DNA from: Moorella thermoacetica
GTDB taxonomy: Bacteria > Bacillota > DSM-521 > Neomoorellales > Neomoorellaceae
Reading direction: 5' to 3'
Assembly (NCBI RefSeq): GCF_001267405.1
Contig: NZ_CP012369.1
Span: forward strand, 274,001 to 338,000
Length of the DNA stretch: 64,000 bases
This document shows positions 35,029 to 50,366 of this stretch, piece by piece. Under the pieces are notes generated by a model. The model searched no databases, was not told the origin of the DNA, and was given only the letters and a program-made list of their open reading frames with translations. Position 1 is the stretch's first letter; the number at the start of each line of letters is the position of its first letter. The translations under genes were made by a program, and so were the position numbers.

Positions 35029-35130
35029 AGGCTTTAGTGTAAAAGGCAAACCACCTGAAAGGGTGGGACGCAAAGCCATGGGTCTACAGCCGTTACCGGT
35101 ATGACTGCCAGGCTGCCGCTAGTAAAGTCT
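35029..35130 (+). ncRNA. Cyclic di-GMP-I (GEMM) riboswitch aptamer
   Basis: The conserved core is present: GGCAAACC, GAAA tetraloop, GGGTGGGACGCAAAGCC, then GGTCTA and a second hairpin with GGTATGACTGCCAGGCTGCCG, the tetraloop-receptor side. P1 is formed by AGGCTTTA (35029) with TAAAGTCT (35130). It lies 160 bp upstream of a gene with a PilZ-like segment. CCAGGCTGCC (35108-35117) is exactly complementary to GGCAGCCTGG (35152-35161), so the aptamer and the downstream terminator compete. If the aptamer holds the first strand, the terminator forms, which predicts an OFF switch. Confidence 0.92.
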
Positions 35131-42837: not shown

Positions 42838-42960
42838 GGGGTATGGTCCCTACCTGCTGGTGGTACCGATAGAAGCAAAAAACGTAATAAGTAAGGGTAG
42901 TTTAGGGGCAATTTCCAGCTTATTTTTGCAGGTTGCCTATAAAATCCAATAAATTATTCA

Positions 42961-42989
42961 TTGACACCATTTGTGAATATATGTTAAAC
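42961..42989 (+). promoter_or_regulatory. Promoter of the malate-CoA ligase operon
   Basis: TTGACA, a 17-base spacer and TTAAAC. The transcript would have a leader of about 225 bases. Confidence 0.65.
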
Positions 42990-43016
42990 TAGGCACAGAA
43001 AGGGGGAGAAGTAAAT

Positions 43017-43198
43017 ATAGCTCTTCCTCCTTATATTTGTAGCCCTGCCCTACCCTGGTGGGGTATCTTGTAAATTGTTTCCAGGTAGTAGGGCGGGAAG
43101 GCAGGGAAACGCAGAGAGCTATTAGGAGAGGGGGGACAGTCTCCTGGTTTCAACGCTTGGTAGCTGTAGCAAAGAAGCTGTGGCAAAGTTTCTCTGCG
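43017..43198 (+). ncRNA. Structured leader RNA of the malate-CoA ligase operon (unknown class)
   Basis: Nested pairings are seen: P1 ATAGCTCT (43017-43024) with AGAGCTAT (43115-43122); P2 CCCTGCC (43043-43049) with GGCAGGG (43100-43106); P3 CCCTAC with GTAGGG (43088-43093); and CCTGG with CCAGG. A competing helix CGCAGAGA (43110-43117) with TCTCTGCG (43191-43198) shares bases with P1 and ends right before the purine-rich GGAAGGAAGG region upstream of the start codon. Two mutually exclusive folds next to the ribosome site resemble a riboswitch, but the conserved cores of the classes I know are not present. Confidence 0.5.
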
Positions 43199-43220
43199 GA
43201 AGGAAGGTTTAGATTAAGGT

Positions 43221-44474
43221 ATGGCTAAATTGTTGGAATATCAGGGGAAGGAATGGCTCAGGAAAGCCGGTATACCGGTGCCTGCAGGCCGGGCAGCTTC
43301 AACTCCGGAGGAAGCCAGGCAAATTGCCGCCGAATTGGGAAAACCTGTAGCTGTCAAGGCCCAGGTCCAGGCTGGCGGCAGGGGTAAATCTGGCGCTGTA
43401 AAGTTAGTCAATACTCCCGAGGAAGCCCGGGCCGCAGCCGCCTCTATCCTTGGTACCTAGATAAAAGGGTACCCGGTCCGGCAGGTGCTGGTCGAGGAAA
43501 AACTAGATATTGCCCACGAGTATTATGTGACCATAATTGTTAATTCCGCCCGGGATGCCAGGTGCCCGATGCTGATGTTCAGCACGGAAGGCGGTATGGA
43601 TATTGAAAGCGTTCCGGAGGAAAAGATCTTTAAGCTGCACATCTCTCCCCTTTTTGGCCTGGAGGTATACGATGCGGTAGATTTGCTCGTTAAAGCCGGC
43701 ATCCCCAATGACCAGCTAATGAATTTCGCCAACTTCCTGGTGAAATTCTGGGGTGCCTATAAAAAATACGACTGCTTTACCCTGGAAACAAATCCCCTGG
43801 TCATGACAGCCAGTGGCGACCTGGTAGCGGCTGACTGCAAGATGGATGTCGACAACAGCAGCGTCTACCGCCACCCGGAAATGGGCATCGAGATCGCCCG
43901 CGACCTGGGGCATGAACCCACGGAACTGGATGTCATCGGCTGGGGCATAGAAAAGACCGACCTCAGGGGCTCGGGCTTCGTCATGAGTATGGGCTTTGAT
44001 GAGAAGAGCCCAGGCTATATCGGCTACCATCCCATTGGCGGCGGCTCGGCTATGATGGGTATGGACGCCCTGAATAATGTCAACCTGAAACCTGCCAATT
44101 ATGCCGATACCAGCGGTAACCCCGTCGCTTCCAAGATTTATCGCGTTGCCAAAGTAATCCTCTCCCAACCGAACATCGATGGCTACCTCCTGGGGGGCTT
44201 TATGATGGCCAACCAGGAACAGTGGCACCACGCCCATGCGGTAGTCAAAGTCCTGCGTGAGATTCTCCCCAAGAAACCTGGCCTGCCCTGCGTATTACTC
44301 CTATGCGGTAATAAAGAAGAAGAGTCCCTGGCAATTCTTCGCGAAGGCTTAAAAGACGTGGAAGGTGCCACCAGAGTAGAGATCTATGGTCGGGAGCACG
44401 TGACCGACACGGACTTCATCGGCCAGAGGCTGCTGGCTCTGGTCAAGGAATATCAAGAAGAGAAGCGAAAGTAG
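43221..44474 (+). pseudogene. mtkA: Malate-CoA ligase (succinyl-CoA synthetase-like) beta subunit, interrupted by an in-frame amber codon
   Basis: ATP-grasp subunit of a CoA ligase. ATG 43221 starts AKLLEYQGKEWLRKAGIPVP with VKAQVQAGGRGKSGAVKL (ATP-grasp); the frame meets TAG at 43458 and continues unbroken in the same frame with IKGYPVRQVLVEEKLDIAHE to 44474. The alignment-expected residue at the stop is a variable surface position (ILG-x-IKG). A product from GTG 43485 would lack the first ATP-grasp subdomain. Either this is a nonsense mutation, a sequence error, or readthrough. The later part includes METNPLV-like LETNPLVMTASGDLVAADCK. Malate as substrate is inferred from the lyase and malic enzyme downstream. 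Confidence 0.8.
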
Positions 44475-44483
44475 GGGAAAGCA

Positions 44484-44774
44484 GTGCTTGAATTCCTGGA
44501 AAAAAGCATCAAGGTCACCATCGATACCAGCAAATGCAGTGAATGCGAAACCAAAGCCTGTATTGCTGCGTGCAAGAAGTTTGCCCGGGGTATGCTGCAA
44601 TTAAAGGACGGAGTCCCCTCGGTGGCCTACCTGTCTGCCGATGAAGTAAAGCGCCGGGGTACCGAATGCCTGGCCTGTGAATACGAGTGCTGGTTCCGCG
44701 GTAAGAGCGCGATCAAGATTGACGTTCCGATTGAGGGCTTGGATGAGTATCTGCGCAAGCGGGGCTTGTCCTGA
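44484..44774 (+). CDS. Cysteine-rich ferredoxin-like protein between mtkA and mtkB
   Basis: 96 residues: TSKCSECETKACIAACKKFARG and then CLACEYECWFRGKSAIKI. Seven cysteines in two groups suggest an Fe-S cluster, but the spacing is not that of a standard 2x4Fe-4S ferredoxin. GTG 44484 follows GGGGAAAG, nine bases after the mtkA stop. CoA ligases of this type do not need electrons, so its role in the operon is unclear. Confidence 0.75.
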   Translation: MLEFLEKSIKVTIDTSKCSECETKACIAACKKFARGMLQLKDGVPSVAYLSADEVKRRGTECLACEYECWFRGKSAIKIDVPIEGLDEYLRKRGLS

Positions 44775-44812
44775 TCGAGCAATACCAAGGAAAAGAATGA
44801 AGAGGGATTAAC

Positions 44813-45709
44813 ATGGGGATTTTAATTGACAGGAATACTACGGTCGTTGTCCAGGGTATCACCGGCCGGGAAGGCTCCCTGCGGGCGGCGTATATGAAGG
44901 AATACGGTACGAAGGTTGTAGCCGGGACAAGTCCGGGTAAGGGCGGCCAGACTGTAGCCGGGATTCCCGTATATCATACCGTCAAGGAGGCAGTTGCTGA
45001 ACACGGACCCATCGACTTCAGCGTCATTTTCGTTCCCGGCCGGGCGTTGAAGGTGGCGGTCAAAGAAGCTGCCGATGCCGGTATTAAGAATATTGTCCCT
45101 TGTGTGGAATCGGTGCCCATCCACGATATCATGGAGATGGTAGCCTACTGCAAGATGAAGGGCACCAGGCTCATCGGCCCGGGTTCCATCGGCATCATCA
45201 CACCCGGGGAAGCCGTTGTTGGCTGGCTGGGCGGTAACGTAGAATGGGCCAATACCTTCTTCAAACCCGGACCCATAGGCGTTTTTTCCCGGAGCGGTGG
45301 CCAGTCGGGCACCATCCCCTGGGTCCTGAAGGAAGGCGGCTTCGGGGTAAGCACCGTTGTCCATACCGGTACAGAACCCGTCCTCGGCACTTCTATGGCC
45401 GACCTGCTGCCCCTCTTTGAAGCCGACCCCCAGACCAAAGGGGTGGCGGTATTCTCGGAGATCGGCGGCTCTCAGGAAGAGGAGTGTGCCGAAGTCATCG
45501 CTTCGGGTAAATTTACAAAACCCTTCGTTATCTATGTTGCCGGCGCCTGGGCTCCCGAGGGACAGCGGTTCTCCCACGCCTCTAGTATAGTAGAGCGGGG
45601 CCGGGGTTCGGCCAAGAGCAAAATGGAAGCCATTCGTAAGGCCGGCGGTTATGTGGCTATGTCGCCGACGGACATTCCGCGTATTCTTAGAGAAGTTATC
45701 AAAGACTAG
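44813..45709 (+). CDS. mtkB: Malate-CoA ligase (succinyl-CoA synthetase-like) alpha subunit
   Basis: 298 residues. CoA-binding Rossmann fold (VVVQGITGREGSLRAAYMKEYG), IGPGSIGIITPGE, VFSRSGGQSGTIPWVL, FSEIGGSQEEECAEVI, and the phosphohistidine segment GAWAPEGQRFSHASSIVERG with His replacing the usual GHAGAII histidine. It pairs with the interrupted beta subunit. The reaction is malate + CoA + ATP to malyl-CoA or its reverse (inferred from neighbours); succinate as substrate is the alternative. Confidence 0.85.
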   Translation: MGILIDRNTTVVVQGITGREGSLRAAYMKEYGTKVVAGTSPGKGGQTVAGIPVYHTVKEAVAEHGPIDFSVIFVPGRALKVAVKEAADAGIKNIVPCVESVPIHDIMEMVAYCKMKGTRLIGPGSIGIITPGEAVVGWLGGNVEWANTFFKPGPIGVFSRSGGQSGTIPWVLKEGGFGVSTVVHTGTEPVLGTSMADLLPLFEADPQTKGVAVFSEIGGSQEEECAEVIASGKFTKPFVIYVAGAWAPEGQRFSHASSIVERGRGSAKSKMEAIRKAGGYVAMSPTDIPRILREVIKD

Positions 45710-45721
45710 GAGGTCTTTATA

Positions 45722-46618
45722 ATGGCTGTAATGCGTTCAATCCTCTATGTTCCCGGTAACAACCCCAAAATGGTGGCTAAAGCCCCTACTTTTCCCGCCG
45801 ACATCATCACCCTGGACCTGGAAGACTCGGTGCCGCCGGCGGAGAAGGAAAACGCTCGTAAATTAATTCGGGAGAACATCAAAGCTGTTGGAGCTAACGG
45901 CTCCGAGGTATACGTCCGCATCAATAATTGGGAAACGGAAATGACCAACGACGACCTGGAAGCCGTAGTAGTTGAAGGTCTAGCCGGTGTCACCCTGGCT
46001 AAATGCGGCCATCCTGACAACGTCAAGCGCCTGGATTGGAAACTGGAAGAACTGGAACGCCGCCGGGGCCTGCCGGTCGGCAGCATTAAGGTATCCCTCC
46101 TTATCGAGACCGCCAAGGGCGTAATCAACGCCTATGAATCCTGCATCGCCAGCCCCCGGGTAGTCAGCGCTATCTTCGGAGCCGTCGACTACTGCAAGGA
46201 TATGAGGGTTAAACTTACCTCCGAAGCCACCGAGCAGTTTTACGCCAGGGCCCACGTAGCTGTAGCTGCCAGGGCAGCCGGTATAGTTGCCATCGATGCC
46301 CCCTACGTGGCTTATCAGGATCTGGAAGGCTTTGAGAAGAATATCCGTGAAGGCCGCCAGCTTGGCTATGAAGGCCGCATGATTATCCACCCGAGTCAGA
46401 TTGAGATTTGCAACCGCCTCTATGCTCCCGATCCTGCTGATGTGGAGTGGGCCCGCGGCGTAGTCAAAGTCTTTGAAGAAGAAGGCATCGCCAAAGGCAA
46501 GGCCGCGGTATCCTACAACGGCAAGATGGTAGATACTCCGGTATACCTGAACGCTAAAGATATCCTGGCGGCCCAGGCCGAAATTGACGCTAAAAACGCA
46601 GCCATGAAGAAAGCCTAA
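45722..46618 (+). CDS. mcl: HpcH/HpaI-family lyase, probable L-malyl-CoA lyase
   Basis: 298 residues, CitE-like TIM barrel. RSILYVPGNNPKMVAKAP (CoA/metal loop), ITLDLEDSVPPAEKENAR (metal-binding Glu/Asp), EVYVRINNWETEM, KVSLLIETAKGVINAYE and GRMIIHPSQIEICN are family signatures. It splits malyl-CoA to acetyl-CoA and glyoxylate or works in reverse; citramalyl-CoA lyase is an alternative. AGGAGG precedes the ATG. Together with the CoA ligase and malic enzyme it gives a glyoxylate-to-pyruvate path. Confidence 0.85.
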   Translation: MAVMRSILYVPGNNPKMVAKAPTFPADIITLDLEDSVPPAEKENARKLIRENIKAVGANGSEVYVRINNWETEMTNDDLEAVVVEGLAGVTLAKCGHPDNVKRLDWKLEELERRRGLPVGSIKVSLLIETAKGVINAYESCIASPRVVSAIFGAVDYCKDMRVKLTSEATEQFYARAHVAVAARAAGIVAIDAPYVAYQDLEGFEKNIREGRQLGYEGRMIIHPSQIEICNRLYAPDPADVEWARGVVKVFEEEGIAKGKAAVSYNGKMVDTPVYLNAKDILAAQAEIDAKNAAMKKA

Positions 46619-46632
46619 CGTTTATTCCCGGG

Positions 46633-46674
46633 CGGGGCCAGTCCCGTAAAGCCGGGCTCCTGGTCCCGTTTTTT
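46633..46674 (+). terminator. Terminator or attenuator hairpin between lyase and malic enzyme
   Basis: CGGGGCCAG pairs with CTGGTCCCG and is followed by six T. Because the malic enzyme gene follows in the same direction within 40 bp, readthrough may be partial. Confidence 0.7.
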
Positions 46675-46712
46675 ATCCACCACAAACTAAAGCATGGGAG
46701 GAGATATACTTA

Positions 46713-47936
46713 ATGAGCATCCAGGAAAGAGCCCTTAACCTGCACAGGGAATGGCAGGGTAAAATCGAAACCCGGCCGCGGGTACAGGTTAGAAATGCGG
46801 ATGATCTAACCATGGCTTATACCCCCGGGGTAGCCGAGCCCTGCAAAGAGATCCACAAGGACCCCAATTTGGTTGATGTTTACACCCGCCGCTGGAACCT
46901 GGTGGCTGTCGTTTCCGACGGTTCGGCCGTCCTCGGCCTGGGGAACATTGGCGCCCGGGCCGCCATGCCTGTAATGGAAGGTAAAAGCGTCCTCTTCAAA
47001 TCCTTTGCCGGCGTGGATGCCTTCCCTATTTGCATTGATTCCCAGGATGTCGATGAAATAGTCCGTACCGTCCAGCTCCTGACCCCGACTTTTGGCGGCG
47101 TGAACCTGGAAGACATTGCCGCACCCCGTTGCTTTGAGATCGAGCGGCGCCTCAAGGAGACTACGGACATCCCCATCTTCCACGACGACCAGCACGGCAC
47201 CGCTGTAGTTGTCCTGAGCGCCATCATCAACGCTTGCAAGATTACCAAACGTGAACTGTCCGACCTGAAGGTGGTCATCAACGGTGCCGGCGCGGCAGGC
47301 ATTGCCTGCGGTAAACTCCTCGTGGATGTGGGCGTTAGTGATGTAATCCTCTGCGACTCGAAGGGGATTATCTGCTCTAAGCGCGACGACCTCAACGCCA
47401 TCAAAAAAGAAATGCTCCAAATAACCAATAAAGAGGATCGCTGTGGCACCCTGGCCGATGCCATGGAAGGAGCCAATTGCTTCATTGGGCTTTCCGTCAA
47501 GGATGCCGTCACCCCCGAGATGGTCCGTTCCATGGACAAAGATTCCATTCTTTTCGCCATGGCCAATCCGGTGCCGGAGATCTTGCCTGACGTGGCCCGG
47601 GCTGCCGGAGCCGCTGTGGTGGGAACGGGCCGGAGCGACTTCCCCAACCAGGTGAACAACGTCCTGGGCTTCCCCGGTATTTTCCGCGGCGCCCTGGATG
47701 TCAAAGCTTCGGATATCAATGATGCCATGAAGATTGCCGCCGCCCACGCCCTGGCCGATCTGGTTGGTGACAGACTCTCGGCTGACTTTGTCATGCCCGA
47801 AGCCTTCGATCCCAGGGTAGCGCCGGCAGTAGCCATGGCCGTAGCCAGGGCAGCCATAGAAAGCGGTGTGGCCCGCGATCCCAAGGATCCTGAATGGGTA
47901 AAACGTCATACTGAGGAACTCATCGCTAGACAATAG
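46713..47936 (+). CDS. NAD-dependent malic enzyme
   Basis: 407 residues, the short bacterial type. TMAYTPGVAEPCKEI, VSDGSAVLGLGNIGARAAMPVMEGK, FHDDQHGTAVVVLSA (metal and substrate), VVINGAGAAGIACGKLL (NAD Rossmann), and ALADLVGDRLSADFVMPEAFDPR. Converts malate to pyruvate and CO2 with NAD(P)H. GGGAGGAG precedes the ATG. In this operon it removes the malate made from malyl-CoA. Confidence 0.95.
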   Translation: MSIQERALNLHREWQGKIETRPRVQVRNADDLTMAYTPGVAEPCKEIHKDPNLVDVYTRRWNLVAVVSDGSAVLGLGNIGARAAMPVMEGKSVLFKSFAGVDAFPICIDSQDVDEIVRTVQLLTPTFGGVNLEDIAAPRCFEIERRLKETTDIPIFHDDQHGTAVVVLSAIINACKITKRELSDLKVVINGAGAAGIACGKLLVDVGVSDVILCDSKGIICSKRDDLNAIKKEMLQITNKEDRCGTLADAMEGANCFIGLSVKDAVTPEMVRSMDKDSILFAMANPVPEILPDVARAAGAAVVGTGRSDFPNQVNNVLGFPGIFRGALDVKASDINDAMKIAAAHALADLVGDRLSADFVMPEAFDPRVAPAVAMAVARAAIESGVARDPKDPEWVKRHTEELIARQ

Positions 47937-50106: not shown

Positions 50107-50133
50107 AATGTAAGAAAACAATCTAAGTGCGCA

Positions 50134-50286
50134 AACCTTCGTTAGGTGAGGCTTCTGCATAGACAGACGCCACTGCCCGGAAACGTCGAAAGACGCCAAT
50201 GGGTCAACAGGTATTACCGGCTTAAGGTTTTACCTAATGTGGCTGAGAAAATTCTCTAGCTATGCACGTGCCAAAGCTCAACGAGT
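50134..50286 (+). ncRNA. M-box (Mg2+) riboswitch
   Basis: Sequence closely follows the M-box (ykoK) consensus: CTTCGTTAGGTGAGGCT, CTGCCC, AAACGTCGAAAGACGCC, AATGGGTCAACAG, CTTAAGGTTTTACCTAATGTGGCTG, and finally GCTATGC...GTGCCAAAGCTCAACGA. A hairpin GGGGG...CCCCC with AGAGT/ACTCT follows at 50286-50335, then GACTTTTTAATT, which could act as a terminator or hide the start region. M-boxes normally switch genes off at high Mg2+. The gene below is an ABC permease rather than MgtE or CorA. Confidence 0.93.
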
Positions 50287-50366
50287 GGGGGTTAATAGAG
50301 TTATTTATTATGACTCTAAGTTTTCCCCCATGGGAAGACTTTTTAATTGGTTGGGAGGTGAGTCCA

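Follow-up and report, generated by a model that had tools for sequence, protein, structure and literature searches.

A genus-wide CsoR-type palindrome ahead of the malate-CoA ligase operon of Moorella thermoacetica, where a riboswitch is unlikely

The closest described counterparts of the region upstream of the malate-CoA ligase (mtkA) operon of Moorella thermoacetica are the type-2 operators of CsoR-family repressors, the FrmR branch of the same family and translational riboswitches. Type-2 CsoR operators, known from Streptomyces lividans, Bacillus subtilis, Listeria and Staphylococcus, follow the consensus ATATACCCCTNAGGGGTATAT and require a TAC-X9-GTA dyad (PMC3902906); a palindrome in the mtkA leader has the same dyad around G-tracts. 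FrmR proteins are formaldehyde-sensing DUF156 repressors, a specificity that would be in keeping with glyoxylate, itself an aldehyde. Translational riboswitches resemble the locus in that a metabolic operon has a conserved folded leader immediately ahead of its ribosome site. However, the mtkA leader differs from them in belonging to no known class, in leaving the ribosome site unmasked and in being shared by two species only.

Here, we analyzed this leader within a window of 64,000 nucleotides (the whole stretch under study, from contig NZ_CP012369.1). Judging from sequence comparison, we lean towards control of the operon mainly at the DNA level, by a CsoR-family repressor acting on the palindrome, and consider a riboswitch in the mtkA leader unlikely. 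The M. thermoacetica genome (hereafter G000) consists of one contig of 2,527,564 bases, and the elements of the locus are as follows, G009 being a genome of the same genus.

42961..42990, plus strand: sigma-70 type promoter TTGACA-18-TAAACT; transcription start predicted near 43000
43000..43032, plus strand: 5'-terminal hairpin (43000-43036 in the fold test); pairing retained in G009 although the sequence has changed
43051..43065, unstranded: palindrome TACCCTGGTGGGGTA (TACCC-N5-GGGTA), candidate CsoR-family (DUF156) operator
43110..43198, plus strand: conserved RNA domain closed by 43110-43117/43191-43198, with inner hairpins at about 43125-43144 and about 43160-43181; G000 and G009 only
43199..43208, plus strand: ribosome-binding stretch GGAAGGAAGG, predicted mostly unpaired
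43221..44474, plus strand: mtkA, malate/succinate-CoA ligase beta subunit, with a TAG interruption at 43461-43463
44813..45709, plus strand: mtkB, malate/succinate-CoA ligase alpha subunit
45722..46618, plus strand: CitE/malyl-CoA lyase-type protein
46713..47936, plus strand: malic enzyme

Given the position of the promoter, the transcript is expected to start near 43000 and thus to carry a leader of about 220 nt before the ATG start codon of mtkA at 43221. The genes from mtkA to malic enzyme (43221-47936), whose products score below the curated family cut-offs, together make up the malyl-CoA route gene set for glyoxylate. No terminator-like site was found in the mtkA leader, and a leader peptide was discarded as a candidate, as no open frame combined conserved length with a good ribosome site.

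In an earlier note, the leader had been drawn as a nested stem system (P1 to P4, 43017-43122) whose first stem competes with a second helix, a switch by mutually exclusive folds. The arms named there are present: those of P1 (43017-43024/43115-43122) and of the second helix (43110-43117/43191-43198) are each perfectly complementary (8/8), and as both helices use 43115-43117, they are mutually exclusive. Against this perfect complementarity in M. thermoacetica stands the predicted pairing probability of P1, which is 0.0 in the full leader; forcing P1 costs about 5 kcal/mol (-73.6 vs -78.8). The folding signal is modest: 43017-43122 alone gave a z-score of -1.96 relative to dinucleotide shuffles, with -1.75 for the full leader and -0.48 for 43000-43135. 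In G009, neither the P1 arms (AUAGCUCU/AGAGCUAU) nor the P2 arms (CCCUGCC/GGCAGGG, our reconstruction) pair, and the consensus fold of the P1-P4 span from G000 and G009 reached a z-score of -1.4 against column shuffles. The covariation check accordingly provided no support for P1-P4. The ribosome site is predicted to be mostly unpaired with or without enforced P1; because it is open in both folds, the competition that exists on paper between P1 and the second helix would leave access to it unchanged. With no terminator in the leader and P1 neither conserved nor predicted, the proposed switch finds no backing. The reading of P1-P4 as aptamer, switch and riboswitch is therefore not supported, and that the nested system works as first drawn is very hard to credit.

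To place the leader among related genomes, we compared it with 101 relatives. A full-length DNA alignment was obtained with G009 only (82% identity), and the matches of the other relatives start at or just before the mtkA coding sequence. Likewise, a covariance model of 43105-43202, built on two sequences and searched with strict filters, returned the copies of G000 and G009 and one noise match (E 0.54) among these relatives. Across 398 genomes of the phylum, a pattern for the 3' end of the leader, allowing up to three mismatches, was exact in G000 and G009 and otherwise matched one distant genome with three mismatches. The 45 scattered hits of an exact 17-mer scan of genome contigs fell in unrelated organisms and were judged to be chance. 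Rfam 15, at gathering as well as lax thresholds, gave no match in the leader or its G009 counterpart, a result that excludes only described classes, since a new one would have no model to match. As a neutral reference, G000 and G009 agree at 61% of the four-fold degenerate sites of mtkA, whereas 42941-43000 is 87% identical (52/60 bases) and 30-base bins in the promoter and in the 3' leader half reach 77-97%. Since this lies well above the neutral level, selection appears to act on both of these regions.

The RNA folds that the two long leaders do share are others than P1-P4. The consensus fold of the 5' hairpin scored a z of -7.6 (-7.8 in a repeat, -5.3 on the opposite strand), and that of 43105-43202 scored -4.05 (repeat -4.4, opposite strand -3.9); among 28 coding windows used as control, the mean was -0.37 and the minimum -2.51. 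The helix 43110-43117/43191-43198, which the earlier note had rightly singled out, is identical letter for letter in G000 and G009 and closes the conserved fold, with a predicted probability of 0.34-0.49 in the M. thermoacetica leader and 0.96-0.99 in G009. Within it, the inner hairpin pair 43128/43141 is G-C in M. thermoacetica and A-U in G009. Altogether, the two sequences support conservation of the fold at 43110-43198, although their few compensatory pairs amount to less than a full covariation test. What is left of the proposed structured leader is thus the 5' hairpin and this domain, each kept in two species, but not P1-P4. The domain also contains an imperfect direct repeat (AGCTGTAGCAAAGA/AGCTGTGGCAAAGT at 43162-43189), which is largely retained in G009.

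Could 43110-43198 then be a real riboswitch or protein-binding leader of very narrow distribution, through which mtkA translation is controlled? Its z-score of about -4 exceeds the coding-control minimum of -2.5, its identity bins of 77-97% contrast with 61% at neutral sites, and it lies directly before the ribosome site. Nevertheless, we judge this improbable: the predicted folds leave the ribosome site unpaired and include no terminator, Rfam holds no match, the domain occurs in two genomes while other species lack it upstream of the same operon, G000 and G009 differ inside the domain in their single-sequence folds, and the opposite strand scores nearly as strongly. The 5' hairpin was also considered as an anti-ribosome-site element and rejected, as it is complementary to the ribosome site in G009, yet the predicted probability of this pairing is about 0. 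In several short leaders upstream of mtkA (L006, L007, L078, L079, L080 and L082), most of the ribosome-site stretch GGAAGGGACG has its complement in CGTCTTTCC (in L007, CGTCTTCC). Unlike the long leaders, these short leaders may be able to mask the ribosome site.

Another account of the long leaders has their folds passive and free of any sensing role, the 5' hairpin stabilizing the mRNA and a spacer domain holding the ribosome site accessible. The hairpin is located at the predicted 5' terminus and retains its structure rather than its sequence, and the ribosome site is mostly unpaired, both as this account would have it. A stabilizing or ribosome-site-opening role would be enough to explain the hairpins, and a sensing role is a possibility. 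Passive folds are compatible with a CsoR explanation and would suffice by themselves if the palindrome had no role; taken as the explanation of the locus, however, they have a rather low probability in our view, since they leave unexplained the palindrome shared across the genus as well as the near letter-for-letter conservation of 43151-43210.

By sequence comparison, this palindrome is the one feature retained wherever the operon occurs in the genus. Each of the nine genus genomes that have the operon (9/9) carries a single exact TACCC-N5-GGGTA in its 260-nt upstream stretch, at a distance of 91-155 nt from the mtkA start; in shuffled upstream sequences, the site was present in 2-6 of 20,000 trials. 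Two of the 11 genus genomes (G005 and G006) lack an mtkB match and hence an operon to compare, and in the family relative G015, which has mtkB, the contig stops before the mtkA leader. Seven of the nine species carry an otherwise different, shorter leader, yet the same palindrome. Unlike the flanks and the spacer, the ten arm bases are the same in all nine species, and this invariance without compensatory changes favours recognition by a protein over an RNA stem.

The form of the site points to the CsoR family. It shows the type-2 form, with the TAC-X9-GTA dyad and G-tracts in between, and most mtkA sites of the genus read ATACCCCTAnnGGGTA, nearly matching the S. lividans CsoR consensus (PMC3902906). 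G000 encodes exactly one PF02583 (DUF156) protein, which has an orthologue in each of the 11 genus genomes (11/11), and its gene adjoins a thioredoxin gene. The closest NCBIfam relative of this protein is the copper sensor RicR, at a score under the cut-off, and it retains the Cys-His-Cys pattern of copper CsoR. This pattern, together with a score well below the FrmR cut-off, sets it apart from the FrmR proteins of the same family. Further sites of the TAC-X9-GTA form with G-tracts lie downstream of the copA promoters in G000 (TACCCCCAAGGGGTA) and G005 (TACCCCCGAGGGGTA), and the copA-promoter sites of several other species read TACGGGTGGGGGGTA or TACCGGTGGGGGGTA in the same form. The operator fit, the single DUF156 gene and the copA-promoter sites put CsoR first among the candidates to bind the mtkA palindrome. 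The locus thus resembles type-2 CsoR systems in having one CsoR-type repressor in G000 and similar sites at copA promoters, but differs from them in that the operon encodes malate-CoA ligase, malyl-CoA lyase and malic enzyme rather than copper efflux, and in that about 55 nt of transcript precede the site in M. thermoacetica.

In the mechanism that we favour, TACCC-N5-GGGTA downstream of the promoter would be bound by a repressor of the CsoR family (DUF156), most probably the only CsoR that G000 encodes. With the palindrome about 55 nt beyond the predicted start, repression would need a roadblock: the bound repressor would block RNA polymerase at the palindrome and be released upon binding of a ligand, which might be copper(I) or another thiol-reactive signal. 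The 5' hairpin and the multi-helix domain of the two species with long leaders would most likely serve to determine mRNA stability and to leave the ribosome site open, not to detect a metabolite. Two points speak against CsoR: repression would have to work as such a roadblock, and nothing explains why copper should bear on a glyoxylate operon.

The palindrome might instead belong to a different repressor whose site looks alike. A non-CsoR repressor or activator, such as a regulator of glyoxylate metabolism that senses carboxylates, would match the physiology of the operon better, and a similar palindrome is found at the glycolate oxidase operon promoter of G000. However, the exact TAC-X9-GTA with G-tracts is a CsoR-family signature, and relatives have no conserved counterpart of the G000 site directly ahead of glcD (glycolate oxidase subunit), so that we regard such a regulator as a minority option, if a serious one. 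The glcD copy lies behind the promoter, at L131:10065-10079 (G000:C1:36064). The exact motif occurs seven times in G000, compared with three for a backwards control; together with the lack of conservation at glcD, this indicates that some motif matches are chance. The idea of a glycolate regulon was dropped because the palindrome is absent from that position in relatives, and a second target suggested by palindromes in G008, G003, G001 and G004 was rejected, these sites falling within a glmU-like coding gene.

If CsoR does act at this site, the family would have an unusual target here, with a copper- or thiol-sensing repressor governing the malyl-CoA (glyoxylate) pathway in an acetogen. A bolder version, in which a CsoR-family repressor was recruited to glyoxylate carbon metabolism in Moorella-type acetogens and a new structured RNA of narrow distribution, located downstream of the operator, adds ligand- or protein-dependent control of translation in two species, strikes us as a long shot. 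The comparison also amends the record on this leader: a persuasive single-sequence fold is unconserved, and a DNA palindrome and a different helix are conserved.

Two genes of the pathway appear to be damaged in this strain. Codon 81 of mtkA is an in-frame TAG (43461-43463) where G009 has GAG; the beta subunit of malate-CoA ligase is probably truncated here, or the base is a sequencing error. The glcD product (L131:10181-11533; G000:C1:36180-37529) matches relatives up to residue 398 and continues in another frame, so that the gene appears to be frameshifted near codon 398 in comparison with eight relatives. If they are not sequence errors, the stop in mtkA and the frameshift in glcD, both affecting the glycolate/glyoxylate pathway, suggest that this pathway is decaying in the strain.

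Besides the mtkA leader, the window contains a c-di-GMP-I riboswitch at 35035-35120 (Rfam match) and an M-box (magnesium) riboswitch at 50131-50296. The M-box lies ahead of a gene for a two-domain ABC permease, which is no obvious magnesium channel; the pair of M-box and permease gene is conserved in G009 (L132:3310-3475), where an ABC ATPase gene comes next.
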